Shown: positions 11,593 to 25,026 of the stretch, in pieces | Layout: every line of letters begins with the position of its first letter | Position numbering within the stretch: the first letter of the stretch is position 1 | Assembly (NCBI GenBank): GCA_001804805.1 | Contig: MHBH01000072.1 | Coordinates: forward strand, 1-64,000 | Direction of reading: 5' to 3' | Source: Lentisphaerae bacterium GWF2_49_21 | Lineage (GTDB): Bacteria > Verrucomicrobiota > Lentisphaeria > Victivallales > GWF2-50-93 | Length of the DNA: 64,000 nucleotides | Program-made: the position numbers and the translations under genes | The notes under the pieces: model-generated | The model's input: only the letters and a program-made list of their open reading frames with translations | Told to the model about the DNA's origin: nothing | Database searches by the model: none

Positions 11593-12007
11593 GGCGCCAC
11601 CTCGCTTATTTATTTCAGCCCCTAAACCTATGTTGACCCTAATTTGATTTCAAGCATATTCGATGCCAATATTGGTTTAAAACTGAAAAATGAGCTCAAA
11701 ACGATATTTGGAAATACCACTTTGAACATCAAAGCTCAGGATTTTCCTGATGTGGCTTACGTGATTTACATTAAAGGCTATGGAAGGAGGGAGCTCGAAG
11801 GGATTCTGGATGACTGGCTGAAAATGACCGCAAGGCGCAAGGCTGTCCACGGCAAAGACATGACATGACATTATATCTCAAAATCAAGGATTAATCAAGG
11901 GCATTTTGCCAAAAACATGACCAATGATGCATATTTGACATTGCCGCCTTGATTTTTACAGGTATAAAAATATATTGAGGCAGATTAAAAAAATAAGGAG
12001 GCCTGCT
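11593..12007 (+). other. Intergenic region with a doubtful 74-codon frame and the leader of the repeat locus
   Basis: An open frame from a TTG at 11644 to 11868 translates as 74 residues without a recognised family and without a convincing ribosome site; it could be a gene remnant. The 3' part, about 11930-12007, leads the repeat-protein gene. It has TTGACA at 11935-11940 and a TATAAA at 11963-11968, but the 22-bp spacing is too long for a standard promoter. TTGCCG at 11941-11946 gives 16 bp. A strong AAGGAGG at 11995-12001 belongs to the TTG start at 12008. Confidence 0.4.
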
Positions 12008-12967
12008 TTGAAAATTCTAATTTCCCTTTTCCTGCTTTCAGCATCTCTCTGCGTATCAGCGCTTCCCCAGGGCGGAGCCTCCGACTCCAGTGGCAAGACT
12101 GAAGTCAAGGATTCGGTAATTGTCAATTCCAGCTCCGGAGTGAATATCGCGGTAGGGAACAGCAAGGTCAATTCAGGAATAAATGCCCAAGGCGCCGAAA
12201 TCAAAGACTCTACAATCATCAATAATACCGCCGGTGCAAATATCGCCGTTGGAAACAGCAAGGCTAATTCAGGTATTGACGCCAATGGTGCAGTAGTCAA
12301 GGATTCCCTGCTCCTCAATAATACCGCAGGAGCCACGATCGCCGTTGGAAACAGCAAGGCCAACTCAGGAATTGAGGCAAACGGCGCAACCATCAAAAAT
12401 GCAGCTGTCATAAACAACACCGCCGGAGCCACGATTGCCGCAGGCAACAGCCATGCAAACTCAGGCATCGAGGCCAATAATGCGAATATCAAGAATGCAG
12501 CCGTCGTAAACAATACCGCCGGGGCCACGATTGCCGCAGGCAATAGCCATGCCAATTCCGGAATCGAAGCAAACGGCGCAACCATCAAAAACGCGGCTGT
12601 CATCAACAATACTGCAGGCGTTACAATCGCCGCAGGCAACAGCCATGCAAACTCCGGTATCGAGGCCAACAATGCAAATATCAGCAACGCCGCCCTTGTC
12701 AACAATAATGCCGGTGCGACAATCGCTGTCGGCGGAGGCCATGCCAACTCAGGGATCGAAGCCAATAACGCCACCATAAAAAATACCGCCATTATAAACA
12801 ACAATGCCGGTGTTACAGCAGCATGGGCCGGTGGAAGCGCGAATTCCGGAGTAAAGCTTAACAATGCAACGGTCGACAGCACGCCTATAGTAAACACTAA
12901 TACCGGTGTAACTGTCAATGTCCTGCCTGGCTCATCTGTGAGCACAGGCGTAAATCTGGGGGATTGA
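12008..12967 (+). CDS. Secreted 32-residue tandem-repeat protein A (putative fibre/beta-solenoid subunit)
   Basis: A TTG start at 12008 is preceded by AAGGAGG at ideal spacing and gives a signal peptide, MKILISLFLLSASLCVSA. After a short Ser/Gly linker the protein is made of eight 32-residue units plus a 24-residue terminal unit ending TGVNLGD. The consensus pattern is NNTAG-x-TIA-x-GNS-x-ANSGIEAN-x-A-x-IKNA. Asn, Ser, Gly and alternating aliphatic residues recur at fixed positions, as in beta-solenoid or curlin-like subunits. There are no Cys and few aromatics. It is followed 42 bp later by a clear paralogue with 33-residue units. Known function: none that I recognise. A self-assembling surface protein is inferred from repeat regularity and the secretion-type neighbours. 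Confidence 0.75.
   Translation: MKILISLFLLSASLCVSALPQGGASDSSGKTEVKDSVIVNSSSGVNIAVGNSKVNSGINAQGAEIKDSTIINNTAGANIAVGNSKANSGIDANGAVVKDSLLLNNTAGATIAVGNSKANSGIEANGATIKNAAVINNTAGATIAAGNSHANSGIEANNANIKNAAVVNNTAGATIAAGNSHANSGIEANGATIKNAAVINNTAGVTIAAGNSHANSGIEANNANISNAALVNNNAGATIAVGGGHANSGIEANNATIKNTAIINNNAGVTAAWAGGSANSGVKLNNATVDSTPIVNTNTGVTVNVLPGSSVSTGVNLGD
12125..12964 (+). repeat. 96-bp coding tandem repeat, 8 full units plus a 72-bp terminal unit
   Basis: Units begin at 12125, 12221, 12317, 12413, 12509, 12605, 12701 and 12797, with the last partial unit from 12893. Divergence between units is moderate, mostly at third positions and at the K/H and V/A positions, so the array is older than the one in the next gene. 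Periodicity stays in frame throughout. Confidence 0.9.
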
Positions 12968-13009: not shown

Positions 13010-13909
13010 ATGAAAAGGTCGAAAATTCTGGTGATGGGAATCGCGGCGGCATTAACACTCACGGGAGTCTCCACATTTGGACTTCCTGGAGGCGAAGGCG
13101 GTGGTGGAGGCGGAACCACTGTCAAGGATTCAACAATCATCAATGAAAACGCCAACGTCACGAACCTTGCGGTCGGAAACTCCAAGATTAATTCCGGTAT
13201 CGAGGCGAAGGGTTCTGAAATCAAGGACTCCACTCTCATCAATGAGAACAAGAACGTCACGAACCTTGCGGTCGGAAACTCCAAGATCAACTCCGGCATC
13301 CAGGCCAATGGCAGCGAGATCAAGAACTCCACCCTCATCAATGAGAACAAGAACGTCACGAACCTTGCGGTCGGAAACTCCAAGATCAATTCCGGCATCG
13401 AGGCAAATGGCAGCGAGATCAAGAACTCCACCCTCATAAATGAGAACAAGAACGTCACGAACCTTGCAGTCGGAAACTCCAAGATCAATTCCGGCATCCA
13501 GGCCAATGGCAGCGAGATCAAGAACTCCACCCTCATAAATGAGAACAAGAACGTCACGAACCTTGCGGTCGGAAACTCCAAGATCAATTCCGGCATCCAG
13601 GCTGACGGCAGCGAGATCAAGAACTCCACTCTCATCAATGAGAACAAGAACGTCACGAACCTTGCGGTCGGAAACTCCAAGATCAATTCCGGCATCCAGG
13701 CTGACGGCAGCGAGATCAAGAACTCCACCCTCATAAATGAGAACAAGAACGTCACGAACCTTGCGGTCGGAAACTCCAAGATCAATTCCGGCATCCAGGC
13801 CAATGGCGCTGAAATAAAGAATTCTACGATCATAAACGAGAACAAGAACACCACGAATCTCGCGGTCGGCGGCTCTGAAATCAATTCAGGCGTCAATCTC
13901 GGAAACTAA
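13010..13909 (+). CDS. Secreted 33-residue tandem-repeat protein B (putative fibre/beta-solenoid subunit)
   Basis: Paralogue of the preceding gene. It has a signal peptide (KILVMGIAAALTLTGVSTFG), a Gly-rich linker (GGEGGGGGG), then seven 33-residue units of the form NENKNVTNLAVGNSKINSGI followed by QANGSEIKNSTLI, and a 24-residue cap ending SGVNLGN. The cap is the same length as in protein A. The AVGNS and NSGI blocks are shared by both proteins, while the residues between differ by one in length. Near-identity of units 2-7 at DNA level suggests recent unit duplication or gene conversion. The ATG follows AGGAGGGAAAGAAG. A strong hairpin lies between this gene and the next. High Asn/Ser/Gly content and lack of Cys fit a self-assembling extracellular protein; this is inference. 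Confidence 0.75.
   Translation: MKRSKILVMGIAAALTLTGVSTFGLPGGEGGGGGGTTVKDSTIINENANVTNLAVGNSKINSGIEAKGSEIKDSTLINENKNVTNLAVGNSKINSGIQANGSEIKNSTLINENKNVTNLAVGNSKINSGIEANGSEIKNSTLINENKNVTNLAVGNSKINSGIQANGSEIKNSTLINENKNVTNLAVGNSKINSGIQADGSEIKNSTLINENKNVTNLAVGNSKINSGIQADGSEIKNSTLINENKNVTNLAVGNSKINSGIQANGAEIKNSTIINENKNTTNLAVGGSEINSGVNLGN
13142..13906 (+). repeat. 99-bp coding tandem repeat, 7 full units plus a 72-bp terminal unit
   Basis: Units start at 13142, 13241, 13340, 13439, 13538, 13637 and 13736; the cap starts at 13835. The central units differ at only a few bases, mainly the IEANG/IQANG/IQADG codons. Short-read assembly could easily collapse or expand this array, so the copy number is uncertain. 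Confidence 0.92.
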
Positions 13910-18316: not shown

Positions 18317-19525
18317 TTAGAGCAAATCCCTGATGTCGGACAAATATATGCGCCCATCTTCGGATTCAGCAAGCCGCGGGGATATGTCCTTCTTTATTCC
18401 GGCGGCCCTGCAGCGCTTAAGAAATTCACCGACAGTTTCGGTCTTTATTGTATTGATAATCACTGTCTTTGGATATACCAGGATATTTTCGGCCTCATTG
18501 ATCTTTATCCACGCCAAGGGCATCTTGTGCGTTATCCTATGGAACTGGAGATGGAATGAAATCAGCCACAGCTCCCTGGCTTCAGCTTCAGTCAACCTGA
18601 CAGACTGATACCGTTTCTCAAAATTCTCATCCATCAATATTCTGTTGTCGATCATCGCCCGTCCGTCCATGGAGTTCCTAATGCTCATCCCCTGCCCGAG
18701 GGCGCTTTGGAATACTCTGCAGTATGATGCTTTCCCGGCAAGCACCTGCTCCTTCCTCTTTGCCCAGAGTTTTTCCATTTCATCAGCTTCCGCCTTGAGA
18801 ACATCGTACCATATTTCATCGGCTGCGGAGAAGTCCTTTGCAAGACGCGCCTTAAGGAGGATCTCCCCCGCCTCACGGTCATTAATCTCGCCCCTGAAGG
18901 AGCCGATGATCCTTATCATCTTGAAAACCTGTGCATCTGTCAGCCTGCTTTTCTTCTCGACTCCATAAGGATCAACCAGGGAAAACTTCATGTCATCCTT
19001 TCCCAACATGAGATTACCCAGGTGGAAATCCGGGTGGAAAAAACAGGACGACATTATTTTTCTTAGAAATTCGGAGAATGAGTCTAAAAACTTTTCTTTC
19101 AGTTCGGCACGGGTTGACGCTTCTGAGAACCAGTAGTTCCTTGCATTCACGGAATTCTCGAGCTCCCTGGTTATGAGCATGCTTTCGTGCCCCTTCCTTG
19201 CCCAGCCGCAAATCTCGATGGAAGGAATTCCATGCTCCTTAAGCTGCAATGCAGAAAGGAATTCCGATTTGCTCTTGGGGATTATGGAAGAATGTATCCT
19301 GGATGCCAGAGACAGGGGGTGGTTGAATTTCACATAATATGTCTTGCCGCCGCTCTCGACCTTGAATACGGCCCTTACGCGGTTTGACTTGACCATGTTT
19401 TTCCTGGCCACCTCTTTCCATGAATCAAACCATGGTTCAAGAATGGCCGGATCGGATATCGACCATTCCCAATTGTTCACGGTCACTGACTGGAATTTTT
19501 TTGTTGTCCTGACGTCCATTTGCAT
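18317..19525 (-). CDS. WaaP/Kdo-kinase-like protein kinase fold enzyme
   Basis: The product of about 402 residues has the lipopolysaccharide kinase (WaaP/InaA) layout: YYVKFNHPLS with the ATP-binding Lys, a helix SEFLSALQLKEHGIPSIEICGWA, then the catalytic loop FFHPDFHLGNLML and metal-binding FSLVDPYGV. Members phosphorylate heptose or Kdo in the LPS core. The C-terminal 150 residues are not recognised and are longer than in typical WaaP. It is monocistronic on the minus strand. The start was placed at the ATG after a GTG, both near TAGGTAG. Confidence 0.8.
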   Translation of the reverse strand: MQMDVRTTKKFQSVTVNNWEWSISDPAILEPWFDSWKEVARKNMVKSNRVRAVFKVESGGKTYYVKFNHPLSLASRIHSSIIPKSKSEFLSALQLKEHGIPSIEICGWARKGHESMLITRELENSVNARNYWFSEASTRAELKEKFLDSFSEFLRKIMSSCFFHPDFHLGNLMLGKDDMKFSLVDPYGVEKKSRLTDAQVFKMIRIIGSFRGEINDREAGEILLKARLAKDFSAADEIWYDVLKAEADEMEKLWAKRKEQVLAGKASYCRVFQSALGQGMSIRNSMDGRAMIDNRILMDENFEKRYQSVRLTEAEARELWLISFHLQFHRITHKMPLAWIKINEAENILVYPKTVIINTIKTETVGEFLKRCRAAGIKKDISPRLAESEDGRIYLSDIRDLL

Positions 19526-19617
19526 CACTACCTATCAAGTATACAATATAATATCCATCAAAGGATTACATATATCAAGCCATATTAGGCATTTATTTGC
19601 ATGTAACTCATGAATAT

Positions 19618-20727
19618 TCAGTTCATCAGGCCGCTGGCCTGATCACGGCCATGCCCATTCTCCGGCTCCTTCTTCGCCGCGCTGAGGATTATTCCTGCGC
19701 CAAGCATTGTTGAAACAAGGGAGCTGCCGCCGTAGCTGAACATGGGGAGTGTTATTCCCGTGGGAGGCATGAGTCCGACATTCACGCTTATATGCACGAA
19801 GGCCTGGAAAGTGATCATGGCGGTCATTGAGCATATGAACAATCTCCTGAAATCAGAATCCGCCCTTTCCGCAAGCCTGTACCCCACATAGGCGAAAAGA
19901 GAAAAGCCGAATATCACTGGAAGTACTCCGATGAATCCAATAGCCTCGGTCAGTGATGCAAAGGCTGAATCGCTGTATGAAAGTGGAAGATATGAATTGG
20001 CCCACAGGCAGTTCCCCCAGTTCACACCGAAAAAACCTCCTCTGGCAAGCGTATAATGGAATTGCATTATATGCCACCCGGAACCTGTCGGATCCGCCAT
20101 CGGATCGATAAAGCCCTTGAGCCTCATCAGGACATATGGCTTTTCCAGGATCACCCAGATGGAGGCAGGGATGGCGGCAAGAAATGGAAAAACAAGCATA
20201 AGATATGAACCTCCGCTGATGAGATATACCGCCAGCATGCCAAATACATATATTATGACGGTTCCAAAGTCCGGCTGGGCGGCCACGGGCAACAGCCATA
20301 CAAGCGCCATCATCATAAGGAGCATGAATTTTTTCAAGCTGCCGGCCGAGAGAGATGATATCCAGCAAAGGACAAGAATATAGAAAGGCTTTGCCATCTC
20401 GGAAGGCTGTATGAAGACGGAGCCAAATGCATACCATCCCCTCATCCCGTTTATCCTCACTCCAAGGAACAGTACGAGCACCAACGGTATGAAAAATGCG
20501 GCCGCAAGCCAGGGTGCATGCTTCATATATTGGGAAAATGGTATCTTCGAAGCGCAGAACATGCATGCAAATCCGATAATCAGCCAGATGAACTGGCGCA
20601 GGGCGAAATGAAACGGCGCATTGCTGTAGACAGTCGCGTTATATATGGCGAGGCATCCCCATAGTCCCAGCAGGAGAAGCACCGCATGGACAAACAGCGG
20701 AAACGTGACAGTTCCGCGGAAATCCAT
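19618..20727 (-). CDS. SEDS peptidoglycan polymerase (FtsW/RodA family)
   Basis: The SEDS protein polymerises lipid II into glycan strands. Motifs: NGMRGWYAFGSVFIQPSEMAK, QPDFGTVII, YTLARGGFFGVNWG, LPLSYSDSAFASLTEAIGFIG and the terminal GITLPMFSYGGSSLVSTML. About ten membrane segments are visible. The ATG at 20727 lies just past the stop of the preceding gene with TGAGGT upstream, and is preferred to longer in-frame starts that overlap that gene. Following mraZ and a PBP-like gene, it may be the division polymerase FtsW; a RodA role is equally possible from sequence. Partner transpeptidase domain is missing next door (see findings). Confidence 0.88.
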   Translation of the reverse strand: MDFRGTVTFPLFVHAVLLLLGLWGCLAIYNATVYSNAPFHFALRQFIWLIIGFACMFCASKIPFSQYMKHAPWLAAAFFIPLVLVLFLGVRINGMRGWYAFGSVFIQPSEMAKPFYILVLCWISSLSAGSLKKFMLLMMMALVWLLPVAAQPDFGTVIIYVFGMLAVYLISGGSYLMLVFPFLAAIPASIWVILEKPYVLMRLKGFIDPMADPTGSGWHIMQFHYTLARGGFFGVNWGNCLWANSYLPLSYSDSAFASLTEAIGFIGVLPVIFGFSLFAYVGYRLAERADSDFRRLFICSMTAMITFQAFVHISVNVGLMPPTGITLPMFSYGGSSLVSTMLGAGIILSAAKKEPENGHGRDQASGLMN

Positions 20728-20734
20728 GCCGACC

Positions 20735-21448
20735 TCAGAGTTTTCTTCCCTCATCTGTTTTCCTGTCCCTGCTGATAATCTCCTCAAGGGAACTTTCAAG
20801 CCTGATATCATCGCCGGGACGCATTTCAGTCTTCAACTTCCATGTCCCGGGTATCCAGTTCCTGTTCCTGTCCTGCATAACCTCATATTCACCATCCATC
20901 CCCTTCAGATGCTGGTCATATTTCCGCTCAGTACCGGAAACTCCGAAAATCCTGACTACCCCGTAATCCCTCTCCTCATAGGAATCGACCGTACCGAGTA
21001 TTTTCCTTACTTCAGGATAGTCCACATACCTTCTTTCCAGACGCGGGACAATCCTTATACCCTGATATCTGCTGAGATAATCCTTCAATGCATAGATTTC
21101 AGATGGCAGGAGGTTCCTCTTGATATATTTCTCCTTCTCCTTGTCCGGAGACAGGCCTTTGATCTTCCCCTGGAGTTCCTTGATGACTGCAGTGTTTGCG
21201 AGGCAGATCCCGGGATAGGTTTCCACAACGAGATCGTTATAACGCTGGGTCCACGCAAGAACCTGTCCGTTCCTGTCGAGTATCTTCCCTCTTGCGGCCG
21301 GGATTATTCCGCTGCGCAAAGCATGCCTGTTCCCCTCTTCCAGATAATGATCGCGGCTGTAGACCGTGTAATTAAAAAGCCGGAAAGTGATCAGGCACGC
21401 CCATGCAATGAACACAGCTATTATGATCTTGTTGCGGTTCTTGAACAT
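20735..21448 (-). CDS. Penicillin-binding protein dimerisation domain only, transpeptidase domain absent
   Basis: The 237-residue protein has an N-terminal membrane anchor (about residues 8-28) and a class B PBP pedestal/dimerisation domain: the conserved motif PAARGKILDRNGQVLAW at about 50-66, RIVPRLERRYVDYP, FGVSGTERKYDQHLKGMDG and PGDDIRLESSLEEI. In normal PBP2/FtsI this last strand leads straight into the transpeptidase domain with SxxK, SxN and KTG. Here the protein stops about ten residues later, 7 bp before the SEDS gene. None of the transpeptidase motifs lies downstream in any frame. So the gene is a natural or mutational truncation at a domain boundary. Membrane insertion with the pedestal in the periplasm is expected. 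Confidence 0.8.
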   Translation of the reverse strand: MFKNRNKIIIAVFIAWACLITFRLFNYTVYSRDHYLEEGNRHALRSGIIPAARGKILDRNGQVLAWTQRYNDLVVETYPGICLANTAVIKELQGKIKGLSPDKEKEKYIKRNLLPSEIYALKDYLSRYQGIRIVPRLERRYVDYPEVRKILGTVDSYEERDYGVVRIFGVSGTERKYDQHLKGMDGEYEVMQDRNRNWIPGTWKLKTEMRPGDDIRLESSLEEIISRDRKTDEGRKL

Positions 21449-21571: not shown

Positions 21572-21871
21572 TTAATTGTTCCCGGAGGAGTCGAGCTGGC
21601 AGAAACTGCTCGTGTTGGCAATCAGCATCAGCTGGGGATCCTTCAGAGCAAGCTCCTTCCATTCCACAGCATTTTCCGCAGGCACTTCAGATGAAAGCCT
21701 GAGGACCGTCTCAGTCCATTTCTCCATTTCACTCGTCCTGCTGCTCTTCCTTTCAGAAAGACCTGCGGTGACCTTGACCGCGCCAAGAAGCAGCATTGCC
21801 ACGAGGAAAAGGAAAACGAAAAACGCGGTCTTCCTCCTGTATTTCACTGAATGTACAATCGCTTCTTCCAT
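21572..21871 (-). CDS. Small bitopic membrane protein in the ftsL position
   Basis: The ATG at 21871 has AAGGGG at seven bases; a second ATG 6 bp upstream is too close to it. The product has 99 residues with a basic N-terminus (SVKYRRK), one hydrophobic segment (about residues 16-37) and a periplasmic part of 60 residues that is helical at first. Place in the cluster (after mraZ, before a PBP-like gene) is that of ftsL in ordinary dcw operons, and the topology fits, but the leucine pattern of FtsL is weak. I treat the FtsL idea as a position-based guess. Confidence 0.6.
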   Translation of the reverse strand: MEEAIVHSVKYRRKTAFFVFLFLVAMLLLGAVKVTAGLSERKSSRTSEMEKWTETVLRLSSEVPAENAVEWKELALKDPQLMLIANTSSFCQLDSSGNN

Positions 21872-21893
21872 TATCATTCCCCTTATATTTAAA

Positions 21894-22166: not shown

Positions 22167-22661
22167 TCAGATCTCTTCCTTGTTCTCTTTGCTGAAGAGC
22201 AGGTCGGCCGCCATCTCCCTTTCGCCTTTTTCACGGAGATGCGTGTTGATCTTCACGAACTCTTCCTTCCACTTCTCGGCATTCCATATTTCAACGCCCA
22301 GCTCGGTCCCCAGCACTATCACTTCCGTTCCCGGATGGAGTTCCGCATAATCCCTGTACATCTGGGGAATTGTTATCCTGCCCTGCGTTGTAATCTTGTC
22401 GGACTCGGTCATCGCCCCGAAACGCCTCATGACTCTTCTGAAGACCATGCTTGAAGCCGCCTTTTCAGCCGGCTTAGGCTCAGCCTTCCTCATCTGGAGG
22501 TAGATGTCCTCAGGATATACGGCCAGGGCCCCTTCAGGCAGACAGTGAATGACAATGTCCCCGCCGCTGTGCTTCATGAAATCAGCGAGGAACCGCGGAC
22601 TGAATTTGATTCGTCCGTTGGCGTCAACCGAAGCCTTGTCCTGTCCACAAAAAGACAACAT
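22167..22661 (-). CDS. mraZ: MraZ transcriptional regulator
   Basis: MraZ is the dodecameric SpoVT-AbrB-type repressor at the head of division/cell-wall clusters. The start at 22661 (AAAAGGTG upstream) gives MLSFCGQDKASVDANGRIKFSPRF, the first AbrB half, and a second half TESDKITTQGRITIPQMYRDY, with the DxxGRIxIP core in both. The 164 residues are a little longer than usual, with a Lys/Glu-rich inter-domain segment (AEPKPAEKAAS). The promoter carries direct repeats with 10-bp periodicity over the -35/-10 region, as expected for autoregulation. The rsmH/mraW gene that normally follows is missing. Confidence 0.92.
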   Translation of the reverse strand: MLSFCGQDKASVDANGRIKFSPRFLADFMKHSGGDIVIHCLPEGALAVYPEDIYLQMRKAEPKPAEKAASSMVFRRVMRRFGAMTESDKITTQGRITIPQMYRDYAELHPGTEVIVLGTELGVEIWNAEKWKEEFVKINTHLREKGEREMAADLLFSKENKEEI

Positions 22662-22678: not shown

Positions 22679-22733
22679 TCCAATATGTTCCATTATAGTC
22701 CAATTTATTCCAATAGTCAAGAGGATTATCCAA
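22679..22733 (-). promoter_or_regulatory. mraZ promoter overlapped by MraZ-type operator repeats
   Basis: Read on the minus strand, TTGACT (22715-22720) and TATAAT (22692-22697) stand 17 bp apart, an excellent sigma70-type promoter. Units of the form TTGGA/ATGGA start every 10 bp at plus-strand positions 22679, 22689, 22699 and 22709, and again at 22729; the slot at 22719 is lost to the -35. MraZ binds TGGGN-type direct repeats at 10-bp spacing in other bacteria, so this is very likely its box with a shifted consensus (TTGGA). Confidence 0.85.
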
Positions 22734-23163: not shown

Positions 23164-25026
23164 TCATTCTTCCCGCACCTTCCGCGGTGCAAGATACAGC
23201 TTTGACACAAGTTCGGCCCCGGGATTTTTCCCGTTTAATTCAGTACGCCCGTAATTCCTCTGGAAGTCAAATAGCGGATAGGCCTTGCAGTCAAGAAACG
23301 TGAATCTTATTTCTACCTGGGAAGCCGACAAGTCAAAAGGAATCTGGAAAAGCTGCTCATTCATTCCCTGCTTTACTTCAAACTGCTGGGACTTGCCGTT
23401 AACTTCCAATTTGACAGTGCCGGGAACTTCACAATGGAATGGGAGTGCGAACTCCGCAATCCTACCTTCAAGGGAGTCTTTTACCGCGAATTTCTTTCTG
23501 ATTATATCGCCTTCCTTGATGTCAACCGGGGTCCACGAACCAAATGTCACCGGTCCATTATCCATATAAAGAATCTTATTCCCCATTGCTTCCGTCCTTA
23601 TTCCATTCGGGCGCACGATATTCATTATCGAAGATTCATAATACAATCTGTAGAAGTCATATCCGAAGAAAACAATCAAGCTTGTTATAAAAAGCGGCAG
23701 GACTGACTTGAATATCAATTCCCTCCAGTCGCGCCTTCGAAGATTGATCATCAGGACGCCCGCAAATCCTCCTGCACCGACAGCTAAAAGAGGCACGCAT
23801 GGCAATCTGAACCTTGCCAGTATATAAAATGCCGCAGTCGCAAAAAAGAAGGCGATCATAAGATAGGAAATAATCAGCAGCCGGGGATGGTACGACATCC
23901 TCTTGAATCCTTTTCTCGCATGATAAATGAAAAAATACAGCATCCAGGCAAGCGCAAGAGCCATTATCAATGACGTAGGGACGAATGCCAGCGCCTTGAA
24001 GGTGCTGCTCATCATGCCCTGGTAGGCAAACGCAATGTTGTTCGGAATCTCACGGTGATCCCAGAAGAGAAGCATCTTCCTCCATTGAAGCTCAAGAAAA
24101 GCCAGGGGTTCCTGCTTGAACCATCCGAAAATCCTGGTCGTTTCGGAAATCTCCTTCGCCTTTTCAGCCCACGCCCAGAACGTCTCGGGATATTCCATCG
24201 GGCCCGGTCCGGTTCCGGGATTACGTCCGCCTGCAGGCGCTTCCGGAGTGTTTCCGAGTGCAAGAACAGCTCCGGCCGCAGTAGAAGGCCCGCATAACTT
24301 CCCCGTCAGCCTTGTGTTCCTTGCAGCAAACGGGACCTGGGGCAGGATTACCATTATGACAAATACCGCCACAGGCGCAAGCCTCATTAAAATATTCTTG
24401 AGATCCCAGAAGGGCTTCTCCTTTGACTTTATCCTGACGGAGAAGAAAGCCGCAATCATCAGTCCCGGCACGAAAAACCAGATATTGCCGCGGGTCAGTA
24501 TGGAAAGCGACACAATAAATCCTGTTATGGCCCAGTGTACAGTCTTTCCACTCCTCCATGCGACAATCGCAACATAAAGGATCAGGATCACCCAGAACGC
24601 CTGCAGTGTTTCAATAAGATGATAAGGCACGTAAAGTATGAGCACCGCTGAAAATGCCGTGAGCAATGCCGTCAGCCCCCCTGCCCTTCTGCCCCAGAGC
24701 ATCGCTGATGCCAGTCCTGCGAAGAAGATAGTCAATGCAGAAAGGACAGACTGGGCGATCATCACCGCCCAGATCCCATTGCCCAGCACCTTGTGGACTA
24801 CCGGAAGAAAGACAGCATAGTAGAAAGGCTGGTAGTAGTATTTCTCGTTGAACTCCCCTTTGGATATCGTTTCGGAAAGCTCCTTGTATGTCTGCATGTC
24901 GGTACCGGCGGACGGACGTGACACCTGGACATCCTTTTCAAGGAGTTCCCTGCACACCTGCAGGCGGAGCAGGAATCCCGCCGAGGCAAGAACAACGAGC
25001 AGGATATAGAAGTGTTTTTTTATCAT
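23164..25026 (-). CDS. Polytopic glycosyltransferase of the GT39/ArnT (PMT) type
   Basis: The 620-residue protein has about 10-12 membrane segments, then a C-terminal beta-rich soluble domain (about residues 500-620) that is probably periplasmic. The first periplasmic loop holds GTDMQTYKELSETI and YYQPFYYAVFLPVVHKVLG, matching the acidic pair region of PMT/ArnT-type enzymes that use polyprenyl-phosphate sugars. Such enzymes glycosylate lipid A or surface proteins. An alternative is a glycan-related membrane protein without transferase activity. The gene is complete and follows frr on the minus strand. Confidence 0.65.
   Translation of the reverse strand: MIKKHFYILLVVLASAGFLLRLQVCRELLEKDVQVSRPSAGTDMQTYKELSETISKGEFNEKYYYQPFYYAVFLPVVHKVLGNGIWAVMIAQSVLSALTIFFAGLASAMLWGRRAGGLTALLTAFSAVLILYVPYHLIETLQAFWVILILYVAIVAWRSGKTVHWAITGFIVSLSILTRGNIWFFVPGLMIAAFFSVRIKSKEKPFWDLKNILMRLAPVAVFVIMVILPQVPFAARNTRLTGKLCGPSTAAGAVLALGNTPEAPAGGRNPGTGPGPMEYPETFWAWAEKAKEISETTRIFGWFKQEPLAFLELQWRKMLLFWDHREIPNNIAFAYQGMMSSTFKALAFVPTSLIMALALAWMLYFFIYHARKGFKRMSYHPRLLIISYLMIAFFFATAAFYILARFRLPCVPLLAVGAGGFAGVLMINLRRRDWRELIFKSVLPLFITSLIVFFGYDFYRLYYESSIMNIVRPNGIRTEAMGNKILYMDNGPVTFGSWTPVDIKEGDIIRKKFAVKDSLEGRIAEFALPFHCEVPGTVKLEVNGKSQQFEVKQGMNEQLFQIPFDLSASQVEIRFTFLDCKAYPLFDFQRNYGRTELNGKNPGAELVSKLYLAPRKVREE

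Follow-up and report, generated by a model that had tools for sequence, protein, structure and literature searches.

A class B PBP reduced to its pedestal, beside a SEDS protein of a third clade and behind a second mraZ, in Lentisphaeria

The SEDS family is usually divided into FtsW and RodA types. Class B PBPs carry a transpeptidase domain with the motifs SxxK, SxN and KTG. According to passages of two papers, the pedestal of a class B PBP contacts extracellular loop 4 (ECL4) of its SEDS partner and thereby activates it, and B. subtilis and S. aureus need their FtsI homologues even though the transpeptidase activity of these proteins is dispensable (PMC8078798, PMC6207328). We analysed a 64,000-nucleotide stretch of the genome of Lentisphaerae bacterium GWF2_49_21 (hereafter the window), in which a cassette of the order mraZ2, small bitopic protein X, pedestal and SEDS3 includes a class B PBP-type protein that retains the pedestal and has no transpeptidase domain. 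A polymerase partner that has lost its crosslinking half and kept its pedestal suggests that wall-strand synthesis has been separated from crosslinking. Our main reading, to which we assign a probability of roughly two in three, is that the cassette encodes a third SEDS polymerase together with an allosteric activator of its own, and that the strands are crosslinked by FtsI and PBP2 or left uncrosslinked.

The open reading frame of the pedestal protein, at 20735–21448 on the minus strand, is intact from ATG to TGA and encodes 237 aa. Its sole Pfam family is PF03717 (PBP_dimer; residues 49–196, profile positions 2–173 of 180, E 4.7e-16), and the Pfam search returned no match to the transpeptidase family PF00905. 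The top NCBIfam match, pbp2_mrdA, covers profile positions 2–232 of 593 and no more, and in an alignment with EcFtsI and EcPBP2 the C-terminus falls just beyond the start of the FtsI transpeptidase. In the AlphaFold2 (AF2) model (mean pLDDT 90.1, pTM 0.74), residues 43–237 superpose on the solved pedestals of PBP3 and PBP2, with a Z of 12.2 against residues 53–241 of P. aeruginosa PBP3, and an N-terminal hydrophobic helix (residues 2–30) is the predicted membrane anchor. The sequence-only reading had described an anchored class B PBP pedestal that stops where the transpeptidase should begin, and these results bear it out. Of the features of class B PBPs, the PBP_dimer domain is present and the anchor is present in the model; because the transpeptidase domain is absent, we do not class the protein as a complete class B PBP. 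An HMM of that domain, made from two E. coli proteins and 22 of the same genome and its relatives (24 full-length class B PBPs in all), matched three control loci and gave no match in any frame of the 64-kb window.

The SEDS3 gene lies at 19618–20727 on the minus strand (PF01098, E 4e-76). We take its start to be the ATG at 20727, in which case the 7-bp gap after the pedestal stop noticed in the sequence-only reading is correct; the longer start chosen by the ORF caller, at 20811, gives a 77-bp overlap with the pedestal gene. The sequence of SEDS3 matches FtsW and RodA proteins of known structure. A maximum-likelihood tree of 68 SEDS proteins places the cassette proteins (25 cassette rows and three added rows without a label) in one clade (100/100), which is neither the FtsW clade with EcFtsW (98/80) nor the RodA clade with EcRodA (97/87). 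Likewise, a tree of 60 pedestals groups the pedestal-only proteins in a single clade (100/100), distinct from FtsI and PBP2. Both trees are unrooted and do not indicate the parent lineage of the pedestal; their simplest reading is that the transpeptidase was lost once, at an early point in the class.

The Asp at the catalytic position (residue 281 in SEDS3, D297 in EcFtsW, D262 in EcRodA) is kept in all 28 SEDS3 rows and all 38 canonical rows; a passage of one paper describes D297 of EcFtsW as the putative catalytic residue (PMC8765783). The residue that follows it is Ser in 28 of 28 SEDS3 rows, where the canonical rows have Phe or Leu, and further clade-specific residues are His 340 replacing Asn and Gly 125 replacing Arg. 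The changes beside the Asp could mean a different substrate or lower activity. These residues are one ground for an alternative that we consider unlikely, namely that SEDS3 polymerises or flips a different lipid-linked unit for a non-peptidoglycan glycan, so that a transpeptidase would be useless and the pedestal would serve as a structural cofactor; the lack of a transpeptidase beside every pedestal of the clade that was examined fits this alternative too, and the gene neighbourhood, described below, bears on it in both directions. At the site of EcRodA A234, 16 of the 28 SEDS3 rows, that of the window among them, have Thr, 11 have Ala and one has Cys; of the 38 canonical rows, 36 have Ala. 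RodA A234T is described, in passages of one paper, as an activating allele in which Thr bypasses the Rod regulators, and the equivalent A270T of EcFtsW as partly defective (PMC8078798). Given this partial defect in EcFtsW, we treat the Thr of SEDS3 as a lead only.

SEDS genes, PBP_dimer proteins and PF00905 proteins number three each in the assembly, which comprises 5.9 Mb in 91 contigs and is 95% complete. Full-length FtsI is encoded on contig C36, adjoining two Mur ligases (MurE/MurF-like), and full-length PBP2 on C54, near MreC; the other SEDS genes are those of FtsW, beside MurG, and RodA, near RsfS. The third PF00905 protein (about 290 aa; G000:C28, L044 6193–7038) is the only lone PF00905 protein of the genome. 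Since FtsI, PBP2, FtsW and RodA are all complete elsewhere, we conclude that the pedestal and SEDS3 of the window are a third pair and not a broken FtsW–FtsI. Where the earlier reading had called for a search for a second complete PBP, the same genome thus has both FtsI and PBP2; a SEDS–pedestal pair additional to FtsW–FtsI and RodA–PBP2, and its position behind a second mraZ, go beyond that reading.

A lone PF00905 protein would allow for a split PBP, in which an unlinked transpeptidase-only protein docks on the pedestal. However, this one resembles class D beta-lactamases (NF012161, 219 bits; cut-off 250), and such proteins are scattered among the relatives. PF00905 matches in 60 relatives were FtsI, PBP2, class A PBPs, the scattered beta-lactamase-like proteins, and duplicate or cut-off/fragmentary proteins; a recurrent third transpeptidase was not seen, and several pedestal-positive genomes, the closed G008 among them, have just two matches, FtsI and PBP2. 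This search largely refutes a split PBP, to which we give very little credence. No class A PBP (PF00912, GT51) was found in the window genome or in 48 of the 60 relatives. The idea that the cassette replaces class A PBPs is unsupported as a simple rule: GT51 occurs in five of 39 pedestal-positive and seven of 21 pedestal-negative relatives, these seven all belong to one genus, and the other 14 pedestal-negative genomes also have no GT51.

A search with the single protein gave a pedestal match in 40 of the 60 relatives, and a profile of 26 members found the pedestal-only form in at least 119 of 197 class genomes; this and the co-occurrence counts given below were tallied by hand among the matches listed, so that positives are lower bounds. 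The pedestal-only form was recognised by an open frame of no more than about 400 aa, with the exception of G171, in which the pedestal ends 27 aa before the stop of a 666-aa frame. Across the 387 genomes of a phylum-wide sample, the out-of-class matches listed have frames of at least 455 aa and score at most 72 bits. The 28 named loci are almost all from Lentisphaerae, Lentisphaeria or Victivallales, with two bearing the label Kiritimatiellota and a few simply that of 'uncultured bacterium'. They extend to a closed chromosome, that of Lentisphaerae bacterium WC36 (L058, G008; lineage Lentisphaerota), which has matches to three SEDS, three PBP_dimer and two transpeptidase proteins and none to GT51. 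Because the same length recurs in at least 119 class genomes, a frameshift at 20.74 kb, raised as a possible artefact when the locus was first noticed, is excluded. Full-length orthologues in close relatives, which the sequence-only reading had named as its refutation, were looked for and none was found.

Of 66 unique genomes inspected, 56 have a same-strand SEDS match no more than 120 nt from the stop of the pedestal gene; among the rest, one has a SEDS gene 465 nt off, two are cut by contig ends, and seven have room and no SEDS gene. At least three of these seven (G033, G064 and G140) have the SEDS gene on another contig, so both genes are kept. The transpeptidase HMM matched no frame near the pedestal in any of the 66 loci. 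Among the matches listed for the 131 class genomes of the phylum sample, at least 77 genomes have both pedestal and SEDS3, 48 have neither, five have the pedestal only (G062, G063, G088, G115 and G138) and one has SEDS3 only (G055, with a pedestal fragment at a contig edge). The real discordance is smaller, since in G138 a contig end truncates the SEDS gene and in G115 the SEDS gene is adjacent but scores low; in G062 and G063 the pedestal is kept and SEDS3 was not found. Note that many of the sampled genomes are metagenome assemblies. With more than a third of the class genomes (48 of 131) lacking it, the pair is not essential to the class. We found no case for SEDS3 outside the class: the best outside score is 226 bits, against 240–580 for nearly all class SEDS3 proteins (G115, 193), and the out-of-class SEDS loci L185, L186, L188 and L189 appear by eye to be ordinary FtsW contexts beside MurD-like genes.

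These counts bear on whether the pedestal might instead act in trans, competing with FtsI or PBP2 for FtsW or RodA, or for activators of the FtsL/MreC type, and so tuning the canonical complexes, with SEDS3 an inactive decoy or a protein with a role of its own. The pedestal does keep the whole fold bound by the canonical partners, without catalysis. However, it is found in 77 of 78 SEDS3 genomes among the matches listed, it directly precedes SEDS3 at most of the 66 loci, and the catalytic-position Asp of SEDS3 is invariant; we regard regulation in trans as improbable. Several residues of the FtsI/PBP2 activation site are not conserved in the pedestal: Met occupies the position of EcFtsI R210 throughout the 16 aligned cassette pedestal rows. 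Val190-Met191 is invariant (25 rows).

The case for a degenerating relic or an assembly error is confined to the missing domain and to the class genomes that lack the pair. Against this stand the near-constant length across the class, the monophyly of the pedestals, the closed genome of WC36 and a pedestal dN/dS of 0.118/0.558 = 0.21 for one close pair, G024/G029 (the window/L011 pair was left out, its dS of 2.1 being saturated). Assembly or sequencing error is refuted and the neutral evolution expected of a relic is not seen, which leaves this explanation with a negligible probability. The alternative of a fixed truncation, proposed from the window alone, is correct as to fixation: the truncated form extends across the class, is monophyletic, evolves under purifying selection and goes with a single SEDS clade, a more general pattern than had been supposed.

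The genome has two mraZ genes, mraZ1 on contig C36 before rsmH-ftsL-ftsI and mraZ2 in the window (22167–22661, minus strand; PF02381, E 1e-11; start chosen to agree with relatives of 164 aa). The mraZ2 start is preceded by a MraZ-box-like array of four TGG(A) repeats 10 bp apart (22680–22712, minus strand), the only four-TGG run with this spacing on either strand of the window; the same repeat test applied as a control upstream of E. coli mraZ gave three TGG. At least three repeats precede mraZ2 in 40 of 46 loci (42 of 49 rows before removal of L040, a canonical mraZ1 with a misplaced start, and two duplicate genomes); the shuffled controls for the array preserve base composition only. No array was found upstream of the genome's own mraZ1, before pedestals unlinked from mraZ2 (16 loci) or before two unlinked SEDS3 genes. 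MraZ boxes are described as the binding sites of MraZ in part of one paper (PMC8475190), and we infer from the array that MraZ2 may control the cassette.

Protein X (21572–21877, minus strand; probable start 21871) is a small bitopic membrane protein in the position that ftsL has in the dcw cluster. It belongs to a conserved family (alignment of 15 proteins; AF2 pLDDT 75, pTM 0.39) with no Pfam or NCBIfam match above cut-off, and hhalign gives a probability of 1.4% against an FtsL profile, whose 11 rows include two (L148 and L159) that are probably wrong ORFs. In six genomes (L195–L200) mraZ2 and X stay paired away from the pedestal–SEDS pair, from which we conclude that the cassette consists of two modules. 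Three loci without a detected pedestal (L192, L193 and L194, in G026, G014 and G007) keep mraZ2 and the TGG array, with a weak X match beside mraZ2 in G007 only.

Downstream of the cassette is an RfaP/WaaP-like kinase gene (18317–19528, minus strand; NF011703, E 2.2e-7, below cut-off). Such a kinase would suit the synthesis of a non-peptidoglycan glycan, but among the 28 named loci it is near the cassette only in close relatives (L045, L046 and L047) and is not part of the core. In addition, an informal look noticed no glycan biosynthesis gene common to the loci, and the cassette itself is built of dcw-type parts with a MraZ and a MraZ-box-like promoter. Elsewhere in the window, a 620-aa PMT_2-type membrane glycosyltransferase is encoded upstream of the cassette (23164–25026, minus strand), and two adjoining plus-strand genes (11975–12967 and 13010–13909) encode proteins of tandem repeats of about 30 residues; the first has no Pfam match, and the second matches four unrelated families with no single stretch passing alone.

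Returning to the preferred reading, many Lentisphaeria would have a third SEDS–class B PBP complex in which the PBP is reduced to anchor and pedestal. The pedestal would hold SEDS3 and activate it allosterically, bringing no crosslinking enzyme, and SEDS3 would polymerise lipid II into glycan strands; any crosslinks would be made by the cell's own complete FtsI and PBP2, and the strands would otherwise stay uncrosslinked. The unit would be expressed from its dcw-like cassette under its own MraZ. We infer pedestal–SEDS3 binding, activation, polymerase activity, the lipid II substrate, the source of crosslinks, localisation and MraZ2 control from gene content and conservation, and the activator mechanism would follow by analogy with the literature on PBP2 and FtsI. 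We count against the proposal the Met at the R210 site, the SEDS3-specific residues, the non-universal Thr, the two genomes G062 and G063, and the class genomes without the pair. A wider statement, which we hold to be evenly balanced, is that many Lentisphaeria have a third morphogenetic machine (pedestal activator, SEDS protein and private MraZ) in which polymerisation is naturally uncoupled from crosslinking, in cells that mostly lack class A PBPs and with a SEDS protein that has, in over half of the sampled rows, the residue seen in a hyperactive RodA allele.

The cassette amounts to a separation-of-function experiment, performed by nature, on the activation of SEDS polymerases by class B PBPs. 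Should the pedestal be sufficient by itself, activation could be studied without beta-lactam-sensitive catalysis, and SEDS polymerisation would not always be physically tied to a crosslinker. This would bear on strand synthesis in bacteria without class A PBPs, and the cassette adds a third clade to the SEDS family alongside FtsW and RodA.

Like RodA–PBP2 and FtsW–FtsI, the cassette has a SEDS gene beside that of a membrane-anchored pedestal protein, with the pedestal fold, PF01098 and the catalytic-position Asp in common; it differs in having no transpeptidase domain, in that both partners form separate clades, and in having no MreC, MurG or MurE beside it. In the order of mraZ, small bitopic protein, class B PBP and SEDS, and in the 10-bp-spaced TGG repeats before mraZ, seen also in E. 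coli, it resembles the dcw start mraZ-rsmH-ftsL-ftsI; unlike that start, it is a second copy without rsmH, its X is not detectably FtsL, and the SEDS gene follows directly. The bacteria without class A PBPs treated in PMC8406291 share the absence of a GT51 polymerase with the window genome and 48 of its 60 relatives; the passages concerned report SEDS and bPBP genes and do not mention a pedestal-only pair. In the open-access literature, which our search covered to the exclusion of subscription papers, we found no naturally occurring class B PBP that is reduced to its pedestal and paired with a SEDS protein. Close precedents are PBP2B of B. subtilis and PBP1 of S. aureus with their transpeptidases inactivated, in which, according to passages of PMC8078798, the SEDS partner needs the protein and not its crosslinking activity. 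Those are laboratory mutants or inhibited enzymes that retain the domain, whereas here the domain is gone from a whole natural clade, and by this analogy the cassette looks like a permanent form of the same division of labour.
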